Below are positions 23,642-33,498 of a stretch of DNA of 64,000 nt, in pieces. Origin of the DNA: Amycolatopsis thermoflava N1165 (GTDB lineage: Bacteria > Actinomycetota > Actinomycetes > Mycobacteriales > Pseudonocardiaceae); contig NZ_KI421511.1 in assembly GCF_000473265.1 (NCBI RefSeq), positions 1,167,731 through 1,231,730 of the forward strand, in the 5' to 3' direction. The position numbers were made by a program, and so were the translations under genes. Positions within the stretch are counted from its first letter, which is position 1; each line of letters begins with the position of its first letter. The notes under the pieces are model-generated. The model had not been told where the DNA came from. It saw only the letters and a list, made by a program, of their open reading frames with translations, and did not search any database.

Positions 23642-23759
23642 GGGGTGTTTCCTCCTCGGGGTGGGGGAGATCACCGGAAAATCCCGCTCCTGCCGTGAAG
23701 TTCGGACGCCGCGGGAGGTCTTCCGGGTGACGAGACATCTTCCTGCGGAAGGAAACCCA

Positions 23760-24890
23760 GTGACCACAACGGACAGAGTCAGCGCGGAGACCGCGGCCCT
23801 CCCCGACGGCGGGGTGGCGGTGGTGCTCGGCACCCGGCCCGAAATCGTCAAGCTCGCCGGGATCATCCGGCGTCTCGGTCCGAAGGCGCGGATCGTCCAC
23901 ACCGGACAGCATTACGACGAGGCCATGTCCGACGTGTTCTTCACCGAGCTCGGGTTGCCGCTGCCGGACGTCCGGTTCGCGGTCGGCGGAGCCACCAGGG
24001 CGGGGCAGATCGCCGCGGCGCTGGAGGCGCTCGATCTCTTGTTCGCCGAGGTCACCCCGGCCGCCGTCGTCGTGCAGGGCGACACCAACGCGACCGTCGC
24101 CGGAGCGCTGGCCGGCAATGCCCGGTCGGTTCCCGTGGTCCACGTCGAAGCCGGGCTGCGCAGCTTCGACCGCACCATGCCCGAGGAACACAACCGGATC
24201 GTCACCGACCACGTGTCGGACCTGCTCTGCGCGGCCACCGACGACAACGTCGGCAACCTCGCCCGGGAGGGCATCACCGGCAGCTCGGTGATCCGCACCG
24301 GCAACACCGTCGTCGAAGCCGTCCTCTCGCAGCTGCCCCATCCCGCGCGGCGCGAGCAGCTCCTTGCCGACCGGGAGCTGGTCGCCGACCGGTACGTCCT
24401 CGCCACCGTCCACCGGCCGGAGAACACCGACGACCCCGCCGCGCTGGCCACCATCCTGGCCGAGCTGAACCGGATCCCGTGCCGCGTCGTGCTGCCCTTG
24501 CACCCCCGTACTCTGCGGGCGGTCGAACAGCACGGGCTGGCGCACCACCTCGACGGGCTCGCCGTCACCGGACCGCTCGGCCCGTCGGAGTTCCTTGGAC
24601 TGGCGGCCCACGCGGCGCTGCTGGTGTCCGACTCCGGTGGCCTGCAAGAGGAATGCACCGTTCTCAAGCGGCCCCTGATCGTCGTGCGCCGCTCCACCGA
24701 GCGGCCGGAGGCGATGCGTGATTTCGCGGTGCTCGTCTCGCCAGGACCGCTGATCAGCAAGACCGCGGCCAAGTGGCTCGACGATCTGCCCGGCCTGCAC
24801 GCCCAGCTCGCCCGCGCGTCGTCCCCGTTCGGCGACGGCCGCGCCTCCGAACGCATCGTCGCCGAGATCGCCCGCCGGTTCGCCTCCTAA
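23760..24890 (+). CDS. wecB: UDP-N-acetylglucosamine 2-epimerase (non-hydrolysing)
   Basis: A 376-residue WecB/MnaA-type enzyme converting UDP-GlcNAc to UDP-ManNAc for surface polysaccharide. Motifs: GTRPEIVKLAGIIR, HTGQHYDEAMSDVFF, VQGDTNATVAGAL, VEAGLRSFDRTMPEEHNR (catalytic acidic and His residues), TVHRPENTDDP and SDSGGLQEE. GTG 23760 is preceded by GGAAGGAAA; an upstream in-frame ATG lies in a weaker context. It probably supplies sugar for the glycosyltransferases downstream. Confidence 0.92.
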   Translation: MTTTDRVSAETAALPDGGVAVVLGTRPEIVKLAGIIRRLGPKARIVHTGQHYDEAMSDVFFTELGLPLPDVRFAVGGATRAGQIAAALEALDLLFAEVTPAAVVVQGDTNATVAGALAGNARSVPVVHVEAGLRSFDRTMPEEHNRIVTDHVSDLLCAATDDNVGNLAREGITGSSVIRTGNTVVEAVLSQLPHPARREQLLADRELVADRYVLATVHRPENTDDPAALATILAELNRIPCRVVLPLHPRTLRAVEQHGLAHHLDGLAVTGPLGPSEFLGLAAHAALLVSDSGGLQEECTVLKRPLIVVRRSTERPEAMRDFAVLVSPGPLISKTAAKWLDDLPGLHAQLARASSPFGDGRASERIVAEIARRFAS

Positions 24891-24944: not shown

Positions 24945-25928
24945 GTGAGCGGTCCTCCTGGTGCAGTCCGAAAAACTCGACAGGAGGCAGAATGCGAAGA
25001 AGATGGCGCCTTCCCCGGTATCTGGCCCTGGTGGACCGGGGATGTGAACGCGTTCTGGGCCGGCGGATCCGCGCAAGTGGGCCCGGTGTCGCAGCCGTAC
25101 CAGGACGGCCAGACCTACAACACGATCGCCGCGAAACTCCAGGCTCCCCGGCCCGACTGCGACGACGGCACGGCGACTGTCACCGTGCGGTCGACGGTGC
25201 ACCTCCTCGGCCCGAATGCCGGGTTCGGGCAGAACGGGTTCGCCGAACGGGGCACCGACTTCGACACCGCCCCGGGCACGAACACCACACCCGACATGCC
25301 CGTCGGCGGCACCCAGACCCTGGAGACCACCGTCGAGGTCCCGGCGGCGGACCTCGCCGCCGGGAACGTCAAGTACTGGATGATCCTGGAGACCTACCAC
25401 GGCGGCTCCAAGGCCTGGGACATCAGCGGCTTCTCCGCGACCTACACCTACAACACCTCGACGTGCGCGGACCTGGGCGTGACCAAGAGCACCGAGCCGT
25501 CCGTCGATGAGGTGCAGCAGGGTGAGCGGATCAGCTACGCCATCGTGGTGACGAACCACGGCCCCGGGGACTCCACCGGGCACACGATGACCGACCCGGT
25601 CCCGGCCGGTCTGGTCGACGTCGAGGTCCCGGACGACTGTTCCCTCGCCGGCGGTGTGGTCACCTGCAGCGGTGGGCCGCTCGCCGCGGGGGAGAGCCGG
25701 ACCTATCTCGTGACCGCGACCGCGGCGGACGTGCCGGCCGGCACTGACGCGGTGACGGTGACCAACACGGCCCGGGTCAGCGGGAACGAGACGGATCCGA
25801 ACACGGCCAACAACACCTCGGCCGCGATCGTGACGGTGAACGTCCCGATGATCGCCGGTGGCGTGGGCGCCGCGCTGGGCCTGGGCGGGACAGCGGTGTG
25901 GCTGCTCCGCCGGCGCGTGGCGGCCTGA
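24945..25928 (+). CDS. DUF11 surface protein with C-terminal sorting-like signal; 5' end probably frameshifted
   Basis: The frame encodes an N-terminal beta-rich domain, one DUF11 repeat (about 180-290: GVTKSTEPSVDEVQQGERIS, NHGPGDSTGHTMTDPVPAGL) and a C-terminus of VPMIAGGVGA, TM helix and LLRRRVAA. No signal peptide exists in this frame. The good ribosome site (CAGGAGGCAGA) serves ATG 24992 in another frame, giving MRRRWRLPRYLALVDRG, a basic signal-like start that runs off. The simplest reading is an indel or deletion joining the signal-peptide frame to the body. A GTG at 25044 is the alternative in-frame start. Confidence 0.65.
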   Translation: MSGPPGAVRKTRQEAECEEDGAFPGIWPWWTGDVNAFWAGGSAQVGPVSQPYQDGQTYNTIAAKLQAPRPDCDDGTATVTVRSTVHLLGPNAGFGQNGFAERGTDFDTAPGTNTTPDMPVGGTQTLETTVEVPAADLAAGNVKYWMILETYHGGSKAWDISGFSATYTYNTSTCADLGVTKSTEPSVDEVQQGERISYAIVVTNHGPGDSTGHTMTDPVPAGLVDVEVPDDCSLAGGVVTCSGGPLAAGESRTYLVTATAADVPAGTDAVTVTNTARVSGNETDPNTANNTSAAIVTVNVPMIAGGVGAALGLGGTAVWLLRRRVAA

Positions 25929-26041
25929 CCTCCCGCACCGCAGATCGACGGGCGGCCGCCCGTCCGCCATAAGTGGCGACATGTTCGCGCGCCTCGGCCG
26001 GTCTTCAGGGCGGAGTCGCGAGACGGAAAGGACGGATCGAG

Positions 26042-26254
26042 ATGTACGCAGGTGGAATCGGTCCCCACACCGGCGGCACGGCCGGCGGGATGGGGGCCCT
26101 GGCGGCCACCGGGTCGCCGGTGCTCGGGTTGCTCGTCGGGCTGGGGGTGGTGCTGCTGTTCGCCGGGATGACCCTCGTGCGGAAGAACGTGGTGGCCCGC
26201 AACCTCGCCGCGCTCGGTGGCACCGCGCCCCGGCCGTTCGGCGGAGCAGTCTGA
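26042..26254 (+). CDS. Small membrane protein with LAATG sortase-like signal
   Basis: A 70-residue protein. After 19 Gly-rich residues comes LAATG (20-24), a TM helix (27-45) and the basic RK (47-48), then a short tail rich in Ala/Gly/Pro. LAXTG followed by TM and basic residues is the recognition layout of class E sortases, and a class E sortase is encoded 4.7 kb downstream. There is no signal peptide and almost no passenger domain. ATG 26042 follows GGAAAGGACGGATCGAG; an upstream GTG/ATG extension is possible. Confidence 0.65.
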   Translation: MYAGGIGPHTGGTAGGMGALAATGSPVLGLLVGLGVVLLFAGMTLVRKNVVARNLAALGGTAPRPFGGAV

Positions 26255-26265
26255 CGGGCGCGGTT

Positions 26266-26303
26266 CCGCGTTCATCCCGGTGCGGGCACCGGGATGAACG
26301 CGG
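26266..26303 (+). terminator. Strong hairpin terminator after the LAATG gene
   Basis: A 17-bp perfect stem (26266-26282 with 26287-26303) with a 4-nt loop lies 11 bp after the LAATG-protein stop and about 100 bp before the exosortase gene. It would separate the two transcription units. Confidence 0.75.
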
Positions 26304-26403
26304 AGTGCGGGCACGGCTGCGAGAGCGAGAGGACTGTGGGACCAGCGATGTGCACAGCTGAAAGTGACCCGGCGAACCGGCCGGCGCCGACGAGGGAGGA
26401 CGC

Positions 26404-26988
26404 GTGACGAGCGAGAGCGCCGCCGTTCCCTGGTCCGGGATCCCGGCGAACCCGTCCGGGCGCACGCACCGGTCCTGGCTGGGGTGGCTGGCCGCGGCGC
26501 TGTGCTTCGGCGTCGCGGTGGCCCTGATCGCCTTCCAGGACAGCTACCGGATCTTCGAGACCTGGCTCGCCGGTGAACTGGTGACCGCCGTCTCCGGGCA
26601 GTACACCTTCGCCGTGCCCGGGCATCCGGTGCTGTACTTCCGGACGTCGGCCTCGCCCGGCGTCATGGGCATCAACGTCTCCCTGGCGTGCAGCAGCGCG
26701 CTGCTCGTGGCCCCGTTGTTCCTGACCTCCGGCGCGCTGTTCCTGTCCAGGGCCCGCTCCCGGATGCGGCTCGTCCTCGCGACGCTGCTCGGCTTCCTCA
26801 TCGTCGCGGTCGCCAACAACATCCGGCTGATGCTGATCGTGATGCTCGGCGGCCGCTTCGGCGAGACCGGGCTCGACTGGGCCCACGTGCTCATCGGGTC
26901 GCTGGTGATGCTGACCGCGGGCGGTGTCGCGATCCTGCTCTACATCAGGATCACGACCGGACGGCGGCGGGAGGCGGACGGCCGATGA
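26404..26988 (+). CDS. Exosortase/archaeosortase-family transpeptidase (actinobacterial type)
   Basis: A 194-residue polytopic membrane protein with four to five TM helices. The three residues that define exosortase active sites are placed in order: Cys96 in SLACSSALL, Arg141 in VANNIRLMLI and His161 in LDWAHVLIG. The family cleaves C-terminal tripartite signals (motif, TM, Arg cluster) and transfers the substrate to another anchor. First gene of an overlapping operon with GT2, septum-form, GT-C-like and sortase genes. Likely substrates are the DUF11 proteins at 24945 and 31849, both ending in TM-RRR. GTG start after GGGAGGACGC. Confidence 0.82.
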   Translation: MTSESAAVPWSGIPANPSGRTHRSWLGWLAAALCFGVAVALIAFQDSYRIFETWLAGELVTAVSGQYTFAVPGHPVLYFRTSASPGVMGINVSLACSSALLVAPLFLTSGALFLSRARSRMRLVLATLLGFLIVAVANNIRLMLIVMLGGRFGETGLDWAHVLIGSLVMLTAGGVAILLYIRITTGRRREADGR

Positions 26989-28355
26989 GCCTGCTCGAAG
27001 TCTCGATCAGCCTGTCGTTCTTCCTCGGACTGGTCTTCCTGGCTTACGTGTGCATCCTGGTGCGCGGGTTCGTCAAGGCGAAGCCGGAGCGGCCGGGCGA
27101 CCCCGGTGAGCTGGACTGGCACTTCGTCATCCCCTGCCGGGACGAGCAGGCCGTGATCGGCGGGACGCTCGGCTACCTGGAGAGCACTTTCCCCGAGGCG
27201 CACCTGTGGGTGATCGACGACGCCTCCGGTGACGGCACCGCGGCGATCGTCGCCGAGCGGGCGGCGCGCAACCCCCGCATCCACCTGCTGGCGCGGAAAC
27301 TGCCGGACGCCCGCAAGGGGAAGGGTGCCGCGCTGAACCACGGCTACCGGGAGATCAGCCGGCATGTCGGGGATTCGGACCTGCGGGCCCGCACGATCGT
27401 CGTCGTGGTGGACGCGGACGGCAGGCCGTCGGCCAACATGCTCGAGCTGTGCGCGGGCCCGGACGCGTTCGCCGACGAGTCGGTCGGCGCGGTGCAGGTC
27501 GAGGTCCGGATGGTCAACCGGGACGTCGAGCGGCCGCTGCCGGGCAAGGGCCCACTGGCGAACAAGTTCGCGGCGATGCTCGCCCGCATGCAGGACATCG
27601 AGTTCCGCGGCCCGATCTCGGCCATGCAGATCATCCGTCGCCGGACGGGCACCGTGAACATGGGTGGCAACGGCCAGATGAACCGGCTCACCGCGCTGGA
27701 CAGCATCGCGGGAGAGTCGGCGGAACCCTGGGGCAACGCGCTCCTGGAGGACTTCGAGCTGGGGCTGCGGCTGATGCTCGCCGGGTGGCGGACGGCCTAC
27801 AGCCGCGGGTCCTGGGTGGACCAGGAGGCGTTGTGGAGCCTGCCGCCGCTGGTCGTGCAACGCACCCGCTGGGCGCAGGGATCCATGCAGTGCCTCCGGT
27901 ACCTGCCCAGGGTGTGGGGATCGCCGTGCTTCTCGACCGCGGGGTTCCTGGAGATCCTCTACTTCATGCTGCGGCCGTGGGTCCAGGTCGTCGGCTCGAT
28001 CGTGTACGTCATCCCGCTGGCGGTCTTCGCCTTCAACGCCGCGGCCTACCGCGACTTCATGGCGGGCTTCCTCGCCAACGGCGGCCTGCTGCTCATGTTC
28101 GCCTACGCCGTCGTGGGTGTCGCGGAGTTCGCGATCTGGGGCTGGTTCTACCGGTCCCGCTGCGAACCCGGGGTCAGCCGCCGCTCCGCCGTCTACTACG
28201 GACTGTCGGTCGCGCTGTACTCGGTCCTGAACTACGTCATCGCCTGGCGCGCCTTCGGCCGGTTCGTCAGCGGGCGGGGCAGCTGGAAGAAGACCCGGCG
28301 CAACAGCGAGCTGGCCGGGACGCGGGCGCCCGCCGTCGGCGCCGTCACGAAATGA
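26985..28355 (+). CDS. Processive family 2 glycosyltransferase
   Basis: A 456-residue membrane glycosyltransferase: one N-terminal TM (6-28), a GT-A domain with VIDDASGDGT and VVVDADGRP (metal-binding D-x-D), acceptor LLEDFELGLRL and the processivity motif QRTRWAQGS (QxxRW), then three or four C-terminal TM helices. It resembles cellulose/hyaluronan/poly-GlcNAc-type synthases, so it probably polymerises or extends a surface glycan. The start overlaps the exosortase stop (ATGA), a coupling seen throughout this operon. Confidence 0.9.
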   Translation: MSLLEVSISLSFFLGLVFLAYVCILVRGFVKAKPERPGDPGELDWHFVIPCRDEQAVIGGTLGYLESTFPEAHLWVIDDASGDGTAAIVAERAARNPRIHLLARKLPDARKGKGAALNHGYREISRHVGDSDLRARTIVVVVDADGRPSANMLELCAGPDAFADESVGAVQVEVRMVNRDVERPLPGKGPLANKFAAMLARMQDIEFRGPISAMQIIRRRTGTVNMGGNGQMNRLTALDSIAGESAEPWGNALLEDFELGLRLMLAGWRTAYSRGSWVDQEALWSLPPLVVQRTRWAQGSMQCLRYLPRVWGSPCFSTAGFLEILYFMLRPWVQVVGSIVYVIPLAVFAFNAAAYRDFMAGFLANGGLLLMFAYAVVGVAEFAIWGWFYRSRCEPGVSRRSAVYYGLSVALYSVLNYVIAWRAFGRFVSGRGSWKKTRRNSELAGTRAPAVGAVTK

Positions 28356-29248
28356 GGTCGGGAACAGTGCGACGCGCAATCGCCCGGGGCGCCTGGGCAA
28401 GCTTGCTGGTGATCGTCACGCTGGGCGGGGTCGCGCTGGCCGCCGCGGGTTTCATCCAGAGCCCGCCCGGGCTCGGTGCGGGAGAGCTGCGCACCAAGTG
28501 GGACGTCGGGGCGTGCCACCGGCTCGACCAGCCGGTGGAGACCTCGTGGGCGTTCCTGACCGACACCAAACCGGTCGTCCCGTGCGACAGCGAGCACACC
28601 ACCGAGACCTACCAGGTGGTGGAGCTGCCCGCCGGCCTGGCGGCGGAGCCGGAGCGTCCCAGCCCGGTGCTGCTGCAGAAGGAAGGACCCCCGTTGTGCG
28701 GTGGCGACGTGCTGAACGCCTACGTGGGCGCGGACGAGCGCGACGCCGTCCGCGACCTCACGACCGTCGCCTTCTTCCCGACCGAGGAGGAGTGGCGCGG
28801 TGGCGAGCGGCGGATGCGGTGCGACGTGATGAACGTGCCCCGTGGGCAGCTGACGCCGGTGACGGTGTCGTTCCCGTTCAAGGACTCCCTGAAGACCCCG
28901 GACGGGTCGCGCTTCCGCACCTGCCGTCTCGACGGCAGCGAGGTGACGTGCGACCAGCCGCACAACCGCGAGCTGGTCAACCCGTGGCTGCTGTTCGGCC
29001 CGGACCAGGTGGAGAAGGGCCGTGACTTCATGGTCGGCGTGGCGCGCCGGCTGTGCGGCCCCGAAGCGGAGGCCTACCTGGGCGCGCCGCCCGCGTCGCG
29101 GCCGGACCTCACGGTCGTGGTCGAGGTGCCCGGCGACCCGTCGATCCGGCAGGACAGCCGGGTGGGCCGGTGCTGGCTGGCGCCGTCGGACCCGGCGGTG
29201 ACCCTGGACCGGAGCGTCCGGGCCTACCCGGCGGGGGCGAGCGCGTGA
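28352..29248 (+). CDS. Septum-formation family membrane-anchored protein
   Basis: A 298-residue protein with one N-terminal TM/signal anchor (about 12-32) and an extracytoplasmic part. Two tandem segments resemble the Septum_form domain: VGACHRLDQPVETSW with PCDSEHTTETYQVV, and later FRTCRLDGSEVTCDQPHNRE with RVGRCWLAP. Paired cysteines suggest disulfides. Role is unknown; in this operon it may assist export or anchoring of the glycan or surface protein. ATG overlaps the glycosyltransferase stop. Confidence 0.78.
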   Translation: MRSGTVRRAIARGAWASLLVIVTLGGVALAAAGFIQSPPGLGAGELRTKWDVGACHRLDQPVETSWAFLTDTKPVVPCDSEHTTETYQVVELPAGLAAEPERPSPVLLQKEGPPLCGGDVLNAYVGADERDAVRDLTTVAFFPTEEEWRGGERRMRCDVMNVPRGQLTPVTVSFPFKDSLKTPDGSRFRTCRLDGSEVTCDQPHNRELVNPWLLFGPDQVEKGRDFMVGVARRLCGPEAEAYLGAPPASRPDLTVVVEVPGDPSIRQDSRVGRCWLAPSDPAVTLDRSVRAYPAGASA

Positions 29249-30915
29249 CCGCCGTGCGGCGCACCTGGTCCTGGCTCGCCGAGCCGGGACGGCGCATCCC
29301 CGTGGTCTCCACCGCGCTGGGCGTGCTGTGGACCGTGATCATGCTGGCCCGCCTGTTCGTCGGCGGCGCGGTGGGGCTCGCGGACAACTTCGACGGCCAC
29401 CGCCTGATGTGCCAGCTCCAGGTCGCCGCCGTGCCCAACGGCCACGACACCTGGGCCTACCTGAACCCGGTGTACGACACCCACGTCTGGTACGGCGAAG
29501 CGTGCAGCGCGGGTGGCACCGGCGAGCCGTACCTGAGCAGCCAGTGGTACTTCCTGTGGCTGGCGAAACTGCTCACCCCGGTGTTCGGCTTCGACCACGC
29601 GCTCGACCTGCGCGTCCTCGGGGTGGTCGTGTCGGTGTTCTTCGGCCTGGCCATCGGGCTGATCTGCGCGGCGCTCCCGCTGCCGGTGTGGGTGCGGGTG
29701 CTGGTGGTGTCCCTGATCGGCCTGTTCACCGCCGACTCCACGATCGCCCCCTACTTCGTCTCGCCGCTGAGCGAGCCTGCCGCGATCATCGGGATGCTGC
29801 TGATCGTCGCCGCGCTGCTCCGCCTGTTGCGCCGGAACTTCGTGACCGTCGCCGACCTGCTGCTGGTCTCGGCCGCCGTGTTGTGGACGGTGATGGCGAA
29901 GACCCAGACGATCACCATGTTCGCCGGGGTGCTGCCCGCCATGCTGGTCCGGCCGGTGCGCTTCCCGTGGCTGGCGAAGCTGCGGAGGACGCGCCGCGAA
30001 CTCTGCCCGGAACCGCCGCGCGGGCTGCGGCGGCGGGCGCTGGTGGGTGCGCTGCGGCGGACGCCCGCGGTCGTGATCTGCGGGTTGCTCGTGTTCGGGT
30101 GTGTCCAGTTCGCGAGCTCGCAGTCGCGGTGGCTCACCGAGATCTACCACTTCCACCAGGTGTTCGGCACGATCCTGCCGCTGGGCTCGGACCCGCGGCA
30201 GGACCTGCGGGACCTCGGCGTGGACGAGAGCCTGGCCCGGTACGACGGCGAGTCGATCCTGGCGCTGTCCGGACCGGGCGAGGTGCCGCAGGGCTACCGC
30301 GAGTTCCTCGACGACATGAGCATGACCAGGATCGCGGGGTTCTACGCCACCCATCCGGCGCGGATCTTCGCGGTGCTCGACCGCGGGCTGGACGCGGTGA
30401 CCCAGGCCCGGCCCGGCTACCTCGGCAACTACACGCCGGACAGCGGAAAACCGGCCTACAGCCAGGAAAACCGGGTGTTCGCCGGGGGAGCGCTGTTCAC
30501 CCTGTTCCGCCCGGTCCGCTGGGTCGTCTTCCCCGTGCTGTGGCTGGGTTCGCTCGCGCTCGGCGCCTGGCTCGCCCTGCACCGGCGGCTCGGCGCCGCG
30601 GGCCGCAGCATCGGCTGGCTGCTCGTGGCGCTCTCGCTCAACACCGTGGCGCAGCTGGCGTCCGTGCTGCTGTCGGACGGGCTGAACGACATCGTCAAGC
30701 ACTCGATCTTCGTGGTCTACAGCACGTTCCTGTTGTTCCCCGCGCTGGTGGCGGCGCTCGGCGCGATCGACAAGATCGGCCGGCCCGACCAGTTCCTGCC
30801 CGGCCAGAAGCTGCCGAACACCGGCGTGCCGTGGCCCTGGCAGCGCAGGCGCGCGCGGCACGTCACGGGCGCCGTGCGGGGCGGCGAACGGGAAAGGGAA
30901 CTGGAACCGGTGTGA
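29245..30915 (+). CDS. Polytopic membrane protein, GT-C glycosyltransferase-like
   Basis: A 556-residue protein with about ten TM helices. The first external loop is long and contains ADNFDGHRLMCQLQV and YDTHVWYGEACSAGG, placing acidic residues after TM1 as GT-C lipid-phosphate-sugar transferases do. A second long external loop (about 285-400) precedes the last helices. No specific family was recognised; membrane sugar transfer is an inference from topology and neighbours. GTG 29245 overlaps the preceding stop by 4 bp (GTGA). Confidence 0.75.
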   Translation: MTAVRRTWSWLAEPGRRIPVVSTALGVLWTVIMLARLFVGGAVGLADNFDGHRLMCQLQVAAVPNGHDTWAYLNPVYDTHVWYGEACSAGGTGEPYLSSQWYFLWLAKLLTPVFGFDHALDLRVLGVVVSVFFGLAIGLICAALPLPVWVRVLVVSLIGLFTADSTIAPYFVSPLSEPAAIIGMLLIVAALLRLLRRNFVTVADLLLVSAAVLWTVMAKTQTITMFAGVLPAMLVRPVRFPWLAKLRRTRRELCPEPPRGLRRRALVGALRRTPAVVICGLLVFGCVQFASSQSRWLTEIYHFHQVFGTILPLGSDPRQDLRDLGVDESLARYDGESILALSGPGEVPQGYREFLDDMSMTRIAGFYATHPARIFAVLDRGLDAVTQARPGYLGNYTPDSGKPAYSQENRVFAGGALFTLFRPVRWVVFPVLWLGSLALGAWLALHRRLGAAGRSIGWLLVALSLNTVAQLASVLLSDGLNDIVKHSIFVVYSTFLLFPALVAALGAIDKIGRPDQFLPGQKLPNTGVPWPWQRRRARHVTGAVRGGERERELEPV

Positions 30916-30928
30916 GCGGGGGTTCCGC

Positions 30929-31645
30929 ATGGGAGGTTCGGTGAGCACAGCCGCGGCAGGGCGGGCGAGGCCTCGGATCGGGTGGAAACCGCGGGTCTAC
31001 GGCGCCCTCGGGAGCACCTGCCTCACGCTCGGCTTCGTCGCCCTGCTGTTCGTGGTCTACCAGCTGTACGTCGTGCCGGCCCGCACCGGTGCGGAACAAC
31101 GCACGCTGGAGCAGGAACTGATCCAGCAGTGGGAGCAGCCGGACCCGTCCGGTCTGCCCGCGCCGGTGGTCGGCAACCCGTGGGACGCGGCGGTGCCACC
31201 GGCGCAGGGGCGGCCCCTGGTGCGGCTGTCCATCCCGCGGCTCGGCGCGCGCTGGGTGGTCGTGGAGGGTGTGACTCTGGCCGATCTGCGACGCGGTCCC
31301 GGCCACTATCCCGGCACCGCTTTTCCCGGGCAGCCGGGCAATTTCGCCGTGGCCGGGCACCGCGCGCCGGGTGTGTTCTGGGATCTGGACCGGCTCGCCG
31401 CGGGCGATTCGATCCAGGTGCAGGCCGGTGCGACCGAGTACACCTACACGGTCACCGGCACCGAGATCGTCCGGCCCGGTGACGTCGGCGTGATCGCGCC
31501 GGTGCCCGGCGATCCGGGCGCGCAGCCAGTGGAACCGGTTCTCACGCTGACGACGTGCAACCCGAAGTGGGCGAGCTACCAGCGGCTGATCGTCCACGCG
31601 AGCCTGTCCGGCGTCCGGACCGTGCCGGTCGAGCCGGCGGGCTGA
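30929..31645 (+). CDS. srtE: Class E sortase
   Basis: A 238-residue sortase anchored by an N-terminal TM (about 24-50). The catalytic triad is His144 (FAVAGHRAPG), Cys210 (VLTLTTCNP) and Arg219 (YQRLIVHA). TLTTC and the compact catalytic domain fit actinobacterial class E, which prefers LAXTG signals. The 70-residue LAATG protein at 26042 is a candidate substrate. Start is ambiguous: ATG 30929, or GTG 30941 with GGGAGG just upstream. Last gene of the exosortase operon. Confidence 0.9.
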   Translation: MGGSVSTAAAGRARPRIGWKPRVYGALGSTCLTLGFVALLFVVYQLYVVPARTGAEQRTLEQELIQQWEQPDPSGLPAPVVGNPWDAAVPPAQGRPLVRLSIPRLGARWVVVEGVTLADLRRGPGHYPGTAFPGQPGNFAVAGHRAPGVFWDLDRLAAGDSIQVQAGATEYTYTVTGTEIVRPGDVGVIAPVPGDPGAQPVEPVLTLTTCNPKWASYQRLIVHASLSGVRTVPVEPAG

Positions 31646-31848
31646 GCCGGATGTCCACACGCGACGGGGCCGGCCTCCTCCGATCGGACGAGGCGCCGCG
31701 CGAAGTTCCGCAGGTGCACGGCACCACGGTGGGCCGACCGGACGCCGACCGCGTCATGTCGGCGTGAGTTTTCCCCGTCTTGTCTTCGCGGGCGGTTCCG
31801 CTCGCACCGTCTCAATCGGAACGGAGCTTTTGTCATGGAGGAGGAGAC

Positions 31849-33498
31849 GTGACGCGACCACGACAATGGTGGAAGTCGTCCATGGTCCGCCGGGCCGGCG
31901 CGGTGGCCGGGGTGGCGGCGGTCGTCGCGGCGGCCGGCGCGTCGTTCGCGATGGCGACCACGCCCGGGTCACCGGGCACCCCACAGGCGCCGACGACGAT
32001 CTACGCCGAGAACTTCCAGAACCGCCCGGCCGCGACCCCGATCGTCCGGCTGAACCAGTACACCGGGGCCGGCGGCCAGCGCTACGGCGCCGATCCGCAG
32101 TGGCTGTCGATGTGCAACGGTTGGATCGCCTCGTCGGCCCAGCCGGTGGCGCCCGCCGCCCAGGTCAACGATTGTTCGAACCAGGGAACCTGGAACGCGG
32201 TGCAGCAGATGGCCTACGCCCTGGGCTCCTACACGGGCGTCGCGCCGAACAGCAACTACGCGGTGTCGGCGATGACCGCGGGTAACCCGGGGGCTCCGCA
32301 CGTCGAGTTCAAGACCGCCTCGAACATCCCGTTCAGCGGCAGCAACCGGTTCGTCACGTTCAGCGTGGACGTGGCGGTGATCAACTGCTTCGCCAACCAC
32401 CCGCTGCTGCAGTTCTCGTTGCTCGACGAGGCGGGGAGGGCGAGGCCGGTCGGCTCCCAGATCGACGGCTGCGGCGCTTCGCGGACGATCAACGTGCCGC
32501 AGATCGGGTCGGCGCCGGCCAAATCCGCCACTGTCGGCACCTACACCTCCAACGGCGCGGTGCTGGTCAACGGCAGCTCGATCGGCGTGCAGATGGTCAA
32601 CAACCAGCCCAGCGGCACCGGTAACGACCACGCCTTCGACAACATCAAGATCCTCGATGTGACGCCGCAGCTGGACAAGTCGTTCAGCCCGGTGGAGGTG
32701 AACACCGGCGGGACCTCGACGCTGACGTTCACCATCACCAACACCAGCGAGCTGGCGGCGAAGAACGGCTGGTCGTTCACCGACGCGCTGCCCGCCGGGC
32801 TGACGGTGGCCGGCGCCGGGACGACGAACTGCCCGAGCGGTGCGGTGACCGCGGCGGCCGGCGCCACCTCGGTCAGCGTGACCGGCAACCTGACCGCGGG
32901 GATGGCGTCGTGCACTGTCAGCGTGCCGGTGACCTCCGGCACCGCCGGCAGCTACACCAACGGTCCCGGCAACATGTCGCTGGTCGGGCTCAACCCGCCC
33001 GCGGACACGACGGTCACGTTCGTGGAGCCGGACCCGAGCGCCGACCTGGCGCTGAGCAAGACCGCACCGCAGGACGAGGTGCGGCCCGGTGACCGCATCA
33101 CCTACACGATCACGGTGATGAACCTCGGCCCTGCGGAGTCCTCGGGATACACCGTGACCGACCCGATCCCGGCCGGCCTGGTGGACGTGCAGGTGCCCGC
33201 GGGCTGCTCGGTCGGCTCGGACAGCGTGATCATCTGCACGGGTGGTCCGCTGGCCGCGGGTGACTCGGTGAGCTACGAGATCTCCGGCACGGTGGACGCG
33301 GTCAATCCGGACGGGGTGGCGAAGTACCTGACCAACGCCGCCCAGGTCACCGGGAACGACCCGGACGGCGACCCGAGCAACAACACCGGTTCCAAGACGG
33401 TGCGGGTCGTGCCGCTGGTGAGCCTCGCCATCGGCGGTGTCGGCGCCCTGGCCGGCGCCGCCGCGTGGGTCCTGCGCCGGCGGTCGATCGTCAACTGA
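31849..33498 (+). CDS. Secreted DUF11-repeat surface protein with C-terminal sorting-like signal
   Basis: A 549-residue surface protein. Signal peptide at about 1-45 (SSMVRRAGAVAGVAAVVAAA, cleavage near FAMA-TT), a 220-residue beta-rich N-terminal domain (IYAENFQNRPAATP onward), then two DUF11 repeats (about 270-380 and 390-510). It ends VPLVSLAIGGVGA, TM, WVLRRRSIVN. This tail closely matches that of the DUF11 protein at 24945 and fits an exosortase target. GTG 31849 follows GGAGGAGGAG. It stands 200 bp after the sortase gene. Confidence 0.87.
   Translation: MTRPRQWWKSSMVRRAGAVAGVAAVVAAAGASFAMATTPGSPGTPQAPTTIYAENFQNRPAATPIVRLNQYTGAGGQRYGADPQWLSMCNGWIASSAQPVAPAAQVNDCSNQGTWNAVQQMAYALGSYTGVAPNSNYAVSAMTAGNPGAPHVEFKTASNIPFSGSNRFVTFSVDVAVINCFANHPLLQFSLLDEAGRARPVGSQIDGCGASRTINVPQIGSAPAKSATVGTYTSNGAVLVNGSSIGVQMVNNQPSGTGNDHAFDNIKILDVTPQLDKSFSPVEVNTGGTSTLTFTITNTSELAAKNGWSFTDALPAGLTVAGAGTTNCPSGAVTAAAGATSVSVTGNLTAGMASCTVSVPVTSGTAGSYTNGPGNMSLVGLNPPADTTVTFVEPDPSADLALSKTAPQDEVRPGDRITYTITVMNLGPAESSGYTVTDPIPAGLVDVQVPAGCSVGSDSVIICTGGPLAAGDSVSYEISGTVDAVNPDGVAKYLTNAAQVTGNDPDGDPSNNTGSKTVRVVPLVSLAIGGVGALAGAAAWVLRRRSIVN

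Follow-up and report, generated by a model that had tools for sequence, protein, structure and literature searches.

According to the excerpts of the literature cited here, Gram-negative bacteria and archaea are the groups in which exosortases were described (PMC11980579), the substrates of archaeosortase A are lipid-anchored (PMC7157517; PMC11980579), class E sortases use LAXTG signals (PMC5148588), and PEP-CTERM/EpsH has been put forward as a sortase-like system (PMC1569441). Actinobacterial exosortases were met in this work mainly as NCBIfam models. The kind of system is known, as XrtP, its glycosyltransferase and CoaP all have NCBIfam models; our literature searches returned no paper dealing with XrtP, XrtS or XrtR or with an exosortase from actinobacteria, some of the results being swamped by other meanings of CoaP and of the abbreviations. 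Here we analyse a window of 64,000 nucleotides (the whole stretch of DNA studied) within the 8.69-Mb genome of the soil actinobacterium Amycolatopsis thermoflava N1165. Nine named genes on the plus strand, between positions 23661 and 33498, follow each other in the order wecB, DUF11 protein 'a', LAATG protein, exosortase, GT2, Septum_form, WsfD, sortase and DUF11 protein 'b'. We consider it probable, from the sequence comparisons given below, that this locus encodes a protein-anchoring system of the exosortase type, related to the XrtP/CoaP system of Actinobacteria but diverged from it.

The general features of the locus can be compared with those of the named systems. With XrtP/CoaP (NF012139, NF053846, NF040603, NF053845) it shares a homologous exosortase, a GT2 that passes the XrtP-associated model, a tail that starts with VP or IP and contains RRR, and, in most loci, a small LAxTG protein and wecB nearby. 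It differs in that the window exosortase reaches only 68.8 bits against the XrtP cut-off of 200, DUF11 proteins replace CoaP (no CoaP homologue was found in the window stretch searched), the tail has no ASGAG, and the operon contains Septum_form, WsfD and sortase genes in addition. Among the subfamily models XrtS (NF033767) scores best with 74.7 bits, followed by XrtP (NF012139) and, in third place, XrtR (NF012138; 58.9 bits), and the protein is under every named subfamily cut-off listed, well under those of XrtS (145) and XrtR (150). As far as the excerpt of PMC1569441 describes it, PEP-CTERM/EpsH (the exosortase A class) resembles the window in having a tripartite tag, the Cys-Arg-His order and glycan genes nearby, but there at least 8 transmembrane segments are predicted, whereas the window protein has 194 residues with four long helices in its structural model, and its tags have no PEP motif. 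The window operon also has a sortase and an LAATG protein, as class E sortase/LAXTG systems do, but no LAXTG signal is present in the DUF11 tails.

The exosortase and the C-terminal tails

The initial annotation had assigned the exosortase order Cys96-Arg141-His161 to the 194-residue protein at 26404. This was confirmed by translation, by TIGR04178 (exo_archaeo; 38.8 bits, cut-off 23) and by the homologues from related loci, 76 of 78 of which carry Cys-Arg-His, the two exceptions keeping Arg alone. The Pfam model Exosortase_EpsH (PF09721) was barely passed (26.0 bits against 25.7), and in a six-frame genome search the same exosortase scored 22.8 bits with it, under the cut-off. E52, P104 and R141 are invariant in an alignment of 30 rows, and C96 and H161 nearly so. 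The AlphaFold model is confident, with a mean local distance difference score (pLDDT) of 89.0 and a template modelling score (pTM) of 0.79; a fold search with it gave no PDB match at E<=0.001, and a second look found only unrelated helical proteins with a best Z of 7.0. A tree was built from 54 sequences, after 22 near-duplicates and 5 other rows had been set aside. In this tree the four Amycolatopsis exosortases of the window type group together (100/99); a Streptomyces pathocidini protein (locus L041; 98/88) joins them first, followed by five Streptomyces/Kitasatospora proteins (100/97), and all of these stand apart from the branch that contains the Pseudonocardiaceae XrtP proteins.

DUF11 protein 'a' ends in VPMIAGGVGAALGLGGTAVWLLRRRVAA (stop at 25928) and DUF11 protein 'b' in VPLVSLAIGGVGALAGAAAWVLRRRSIVN (stop at 33498), so that both end with VP, a hydrophobic stretch and RRR, and the earlier proposal of two nearby DUF11 proteins with a common tail holds. 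GGVGA, then taken to be part of the signal, does not: it is not conserved across 15 aligned tails, being replaced by GGVDA in the A. tucumanensis orthologue and varying in further tails, while VP and RRR are constant and the core reads VP[MLV]-hydrophobic stretch-RRR. According to Pfam a homologous DUF11 domain immediately precedes the tail in both window proteins, which makes these two by themselves a weak argument for a separate signal; the support comes from the relatives.

No PEP-CTERM model was listed for either window DUF11 protein at E<=1, and their tags begin with VP[MLV] and have no PEP motif; CoaP and CoaP_CTERM were likewise not listed at E<=1. Leaving aside one Kitasatospora CoaP that was scanned as well, no NCBIfam tail model passed its cut-off on any of 11 VP- or IP-tailed proteins or on the 9 scanned proteins of the DUF11 type. 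In a profile comparison the window-type tail matched the CoaP tail with a probability of 92.5 and an E-value of 4.9e-7, the latter valid for this single comparison and both possibly inflated by the shared helix and RRR composition. The idea of a C-terminal signal distinct from PEP-CTERM is upheld, but a wholly separate class is not, given the likeness between this tail and that of CoaP in the XrtP system. An LAETG sortase signal in DUF11 protein 'a' (NF041528) was considered and rejected (18.4 bits against a cut-off of 30, motif absent).

Distribution of tail and exosortase

We compared 19 Amycolatopsis genomes, including the window genome (G000), A. tucumanensis (G002), A. sacchari (G008) and A. 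rhizosphaerae (G016), using a tail profile (A3) of 15 tails: 2 from the window, 3 from A. tucumanensis and A. sacchari, 2 from Streptomyces DUF11 proteins and 8 of the CoaP type. The exosortase profile matches once per genome in 7 of the 19 genomes, 4 matches being of the window type and 3 of the XrtP type. At E<=1e-3 the tail profile gives ten matches, in G000 (3), G002 (3) and G008 (4), and none in the 16 remaining genomes; five of the ten (G000:C1:4169035, G002:C77 and G008:C17, C55 and C38) are outside the profile membership, and all five are DUF11 proteins with VP tails. At E<=1 every genome has matches. Six of these weaker ones were read and four carry VP (G008:C52, G002:C44, G016:C665 and the frame-shifted tail at G000:C1:1114841), while the other two, L161 (ABC permease-like) and L164 (without a VP tail), do not and were discarded. 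In G016, an assembly of about 900 contigs, the best match has an E-value of 0.046, and four VP-tailed proteins were found by reading.

A control based on the domain instead of the tail (PF01345 at E<=1e-6) returned 5, 5, 9 and 3 DUF11 proteins for the four window-type genomes, 22 in all. Twenty of them, scattered over the genomes, have VP at the expected place, with 18 tails intact and 2 disrupted; the domains ahead of the last DUF11 domain differ (DUF6923, SpaA_3, DUF7933). Among the 12 Amycolatopsis genomes without exosortase, five hold one DUF11 protein each, none VP-tailed, and at this threshold the search returned nothing for the other seven. Each of the three XrtP-type genomes encodes a single large protein of DUF11 repeats that ends in LATTG-helix-RRR, a sortase-type signal (L200, L201, L202); judged from these sequences, the DUF11 domain is the same and the anchor is different from the VP tail. 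By this control, the VP tail occurs on DUF11 surface proteins of the 19 genomes only where a window-type exosortase was found.

As to the disrupted tails, that of G000:C1:1114493 is frame-shifted relative to G002 and that of G008:C28 is broken after the hydrophobic part. The disruption of VP tails in two DUF11 proteins, L166:4372-6003 (the window's own genome, C1:1114841, outside the window) and L197, one of them frame-shifted against its A. tucumanensis orthologue, suggests a quick turnover of substrates.

Beyond the genus, GTDB genomes were scanned for relatives of the exosortase's GT2 partner. The best 80 of 289 relatives, together with the window and seven further loci, made 88 loci, or 85 after 3 duplicates were dropped. 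Of the 76 loci whose exosortase is intact, 71 have a tail match (hidden Markov model at E<=0.05 near a C-terminus), as against none of the 7 without one in the stretch and neither of the 2 with a degenerate one (Fisher p 5e-9, a value that ignores shared descent). Most of the 71 loci contain profile members or their close kin, so this test shows a contrast and is not a discovery of new tails; the reading frame of L064, which is outside the profile membership, ends in VPVADPSIAAG...LRRRK. Among the five intact-exosortase loci that were missed, inspection by eye shows a divergent VP/IP tail in L037 and L096, and L039 is a 5.6-kb contig. In two Streptomyces loci (L051, L058) an exosortase and a DUF11 protein with a VP tail are paired independently, and proteins from Streptomyces and Kitasatospora loci have a similar tail behind choice_anch_P, an unrelated domain.

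The CoaP_CTERM model was applied to 24 genomes. It passes its cut-off in 9, all of which have an exosortase, and in none of the four genomes without an exosortase match (L060, L065, L099, L118), nor in that of L071. Nothing exceeds the cut-off in ten more genomes with intact exosortases; of these, L042, L047, L051, L058 and L110 have VPM/VPL-type tails instead. Three of the seven loci without an exosortase in the stretch (L072, L086 and L109) come from genomes in which an intact one is found elsewhere beside a CoaP tail, so that a loss of the exosortase from these genomes was rejected.

Exosortase homologues without Cys and His occur in L071:9420-9983 (Qaidamihabitans) and L074:2058-2624 (A. 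anabasis). They are 56% identical to each other and adjoin GT2, LAxTG protein, wecB, sortase, Septum_form and WsfD genes, with no tail match. A. anabasis has a second homologue, L238, that has lost Cys and Arg, and a third, L240, that keeps all three residues; the choice_anch_P protein near L240 ends in VPVAAPEAVG...YYRRRH. It is possible that the L071, L074 and L238 homologues are pseudo-enzymes with a non-proteolytic role.

At the level of the class, 393 actinobacterial genomes were searched with the exosortase profile (E<=1e-8) and A3 (E<=1e-3), 8 or 20 candidates being scored per genome. The exosortase was found in 8 genomes and the tail in 11, both together in the window's own genome and in G256. 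The best A3 E-value was 1.1e-4 outside the window genome as against 8.5e-9 inside it; the search is noisy between 1e-4 and 1e-3, and the run with 20 candidates did not recover the third of the tails in the window genome. The tail match of G256 lies about 4 kb from the exosortase, with three consecutive proteins having IP[AI]VAPAVA-type tails (L244:8594-11098). The suggestion that tail and exosortase co-occur is borne out within the genus, where no tail was found in the 15 genomes without a window-type exosortase. The class-wide search, in which 2 of 11 tail-positive genomes have an exosortase, speaks neither for nor against it, and to that extent the check proposed in the initial annotation failed in part.

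Gene layout, LAATG protein and glycan genes

The features of the locus are listed in Table 1. The exosortase and GT2, GT2 and Septum_form, and Septum_form and WsfD genes overlap by 4 bases, and the sortase gene starts 13 bases after WsfD; because of these overlaps and the short gap the five genes very likely form one operon. The gene content given earlier was right in its GT2, GT-C-like (here of the WsfD type) and wecB genes and had overlooked the class E sortase and the 70-residue LAATG protein.

Table 1. Positions of the annotated features within the window, with supporting model scores.
Feature	Position	Strand	Evidence
wecB, UDP-GlcNAc 2-epimerase, start codon uncertain	23661..24890	+	TIGR00236 286.3 bits, cut-off 210.15
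DUF11 protein 'a', likely substrate, N-terminus disrupted	24945..25928	+	DUF11 78.1 bits
VP...RRR tail of DUF11 'a', C-terminal	25842..25916	+	translation, aligned tails
LAATG protein, 70 residues	26042..26254	+	NF058583 LAXTG_small_WW 20.9 bits, under cut-off 65
LAATG motif codons	26099..26113	+	
Exosortase-superfamily protein, 194 residues	26404..26988	+	C96 26689-26691, R141 26824-26826, H161 26884-26886
GT2, XrtP-associated family	26985..28355	+	NF053846 586.3 bits, cut-off 520
Septum_form domain protein	28352..29248	+	PF13845 58.5 bits, cut-off 25
WsfD-type glycan biosynthesis transferase (GT-C-like gene of the initial annotation)	29245..30915	+	NF051875 334 bits, cut-off 80
Class E sortase	30929..31645	+	NF033747 199.5 bits, cut-off 160
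DUF7933/DUF11 protein 'b', signal peptide-like N-terminus, likely substrate	31849..33498	+	translation, domain models
VP...RRR tail of DUF11 'b', C-terminal	33409..33483	+	translation, aligned tails

The LAATG protein consists of Met-Tyr, a Gly-rich stretch, LAATG, a hydrophobic stretch and RK, and a signal peptide is not evident. Against A. tucumanensis its ratio of non-synonymous to synonymous substitution rates (dN/dS) is 0.06. Relatives were found beside GT2 in 81 of the 85 loci, mostly without a sortase in the locus. The start codon is followed by Tyr in 81 of 81 relatives (ATG 51, GTG 28, TTG 1, ATC 1), a result favoured by the choice of the nearest start-Tyr before the motif. After Tyr there is a Gly-rich stretch, mostly short, and then LAxTG, LPFTG or similar; in five rows the LAxTG pattern matched an internal VPGxG and not the motif itself, and L058 has LAAAG. 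With NF058583 (LAXTG_small_WW) one of the eight proteins scanned (the window and seven relatives) passes, a Lentzea protein with 95.4 bits. L060 and L099, whose genomes gave no exosortase match, likewise have the LAxTG peptide and GT2. A class E sortase is present in 6 of the 85 loci (the window genome has a second copy elsewhere), a wecB relative in 77, on either strand, and the Septum_form and WsfD genes together in the same 20. It is likely that the 70-residue protein is a substrate of the operon's class E sortase.

Proposed mechanism and alternatives

In the mechanism that we propose, surface proteins ending in a DUF11-superfamily domain would be exported via Sec and held by the C-terminal tag (VP[MLV], short hydrophobic stretch, RRR). 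The membrane protein at 26404 would recognise the tag, cleave near VP through Cys96 and pass the protein to a putative acceptor at the membrane's outer face, by analogy with archaeosortase A and PEP-CTERM/EpsH. Candidates for the acceptor, which the initial annotation suggested might be a glycan or glycolipid, are the product of the glycan genes and the LAATG peptide. Judging from the gene families, the same operon would make a glycan, through GT2 and WsfD with WecB upstream. One exosortase may serve about four to six scattered substrates per genome.

Several observations weigh against this interpretation. The four window-type Amycolatopsis genomes are closely related, so the genus comparison counts as roughly one evolutionary event and not as four, and two of its 22 DUF11 proteins (G008:C58 and C62) have no VP tail. 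A further tail in the window's own genome is frame-shifted. L041 and L068 have an intact exosortase and no tail protein was found near it, and in the class-wide search 9 of the 11 tail-positive genomes had no exosortase match and 6 of the 8 exosortase genomes no tail match. Finally, DUF11 protein 'a' has no in-frame signal peptide, and AGGAGG, which resembles a ribosome-binding site, precedes an ATG at 24992 in another frame. Its N-terminal region (24945-25080) seems frame-disrupted, as does that of the A. tucumanensis copy, in a different way; the mature part has a dN/dS of about 0.20, i.e. it is under purifying selection.

The tails could also be ordinary stop-transfer anchors that were inherited with duplicated DUF11 proteins, the exosortase acting elsewhere. 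Homologous DUF11 domains do adjoin the tail in both window proteins, and tail cleavage is itself a prediction, but we regard this explanation as unlikely: a similar tail stands behind the unrelated choice_anch_P domain in Streptomyces and Kitasatospora, the tail tracks the exosortase over 19 genomes and 85 loci, and the DUF11 proteins of exosortase-less genomes have no such tail. It is still less probable that the DUF11 proteins are class E sortase substrates and the exosortase a non-cutting protein, e.g. a partner of a glycan synthase. The sortase gene in the same operon would fit, and so would L071 and L074, whose homologues, retained beside sortase and GT2, show that the protein can persist without Cys and His chemistry. 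The tails, on the other hand, contain neither LAxTG nor LPxTG, while class E sortases use LAXTG according to the excerpt of PMC5148588, the sortase gene is found in just 6 of 85 loci, and tail matches go with the intact exosortase.

A further idea, to which we assign a low probability, is that the two anchors are one machine, in which the LAxTG protein, fixed to peptidoglycan by the class E sortase, is the acceptor for exosortase cargo or for the glycan. Either the exosortase would join VP-tailed proteins to the exposed N-terminus of the peptide, or the GT2/WsfD pathway would build a glycan on its constant tyrosine. The latter is the likelier of the two, since L060 and L099 have the peptide and GT2 although their genomes gave no exosortase match. 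If the idea is true, exosortase cargo or a polysaccharide would be linked to the wall by a relay of two steps.

Conclusions

As far as our searches show, the new elements are an unnamed exosortase group, DUF11 tails on which no NCBIfam tail model passed its cut-off among the proteins scanned, a sortase in the operon, homologues of the exosortase that lack the catalytic Cys and His, and, as a near-constant partner of GT2, a Met-Tyr LAxTG protein. To our knowledge, it is an open question what bacterial exosortases attach their substrates to. In the exosortase-type anchoring system proposed here, the single exosortase of a Gram-positive operon goes with four to six tagged proteins in each genome, some relatives are devoid of the active site, and a sortase lies alongside. 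As the hosts are Amycolatopsis, genetics and mass spectrometry could be used to look for the acceptor, and the 70-residue Met-Tyr...LAxTG protein provides a concrete lead on the anchor.

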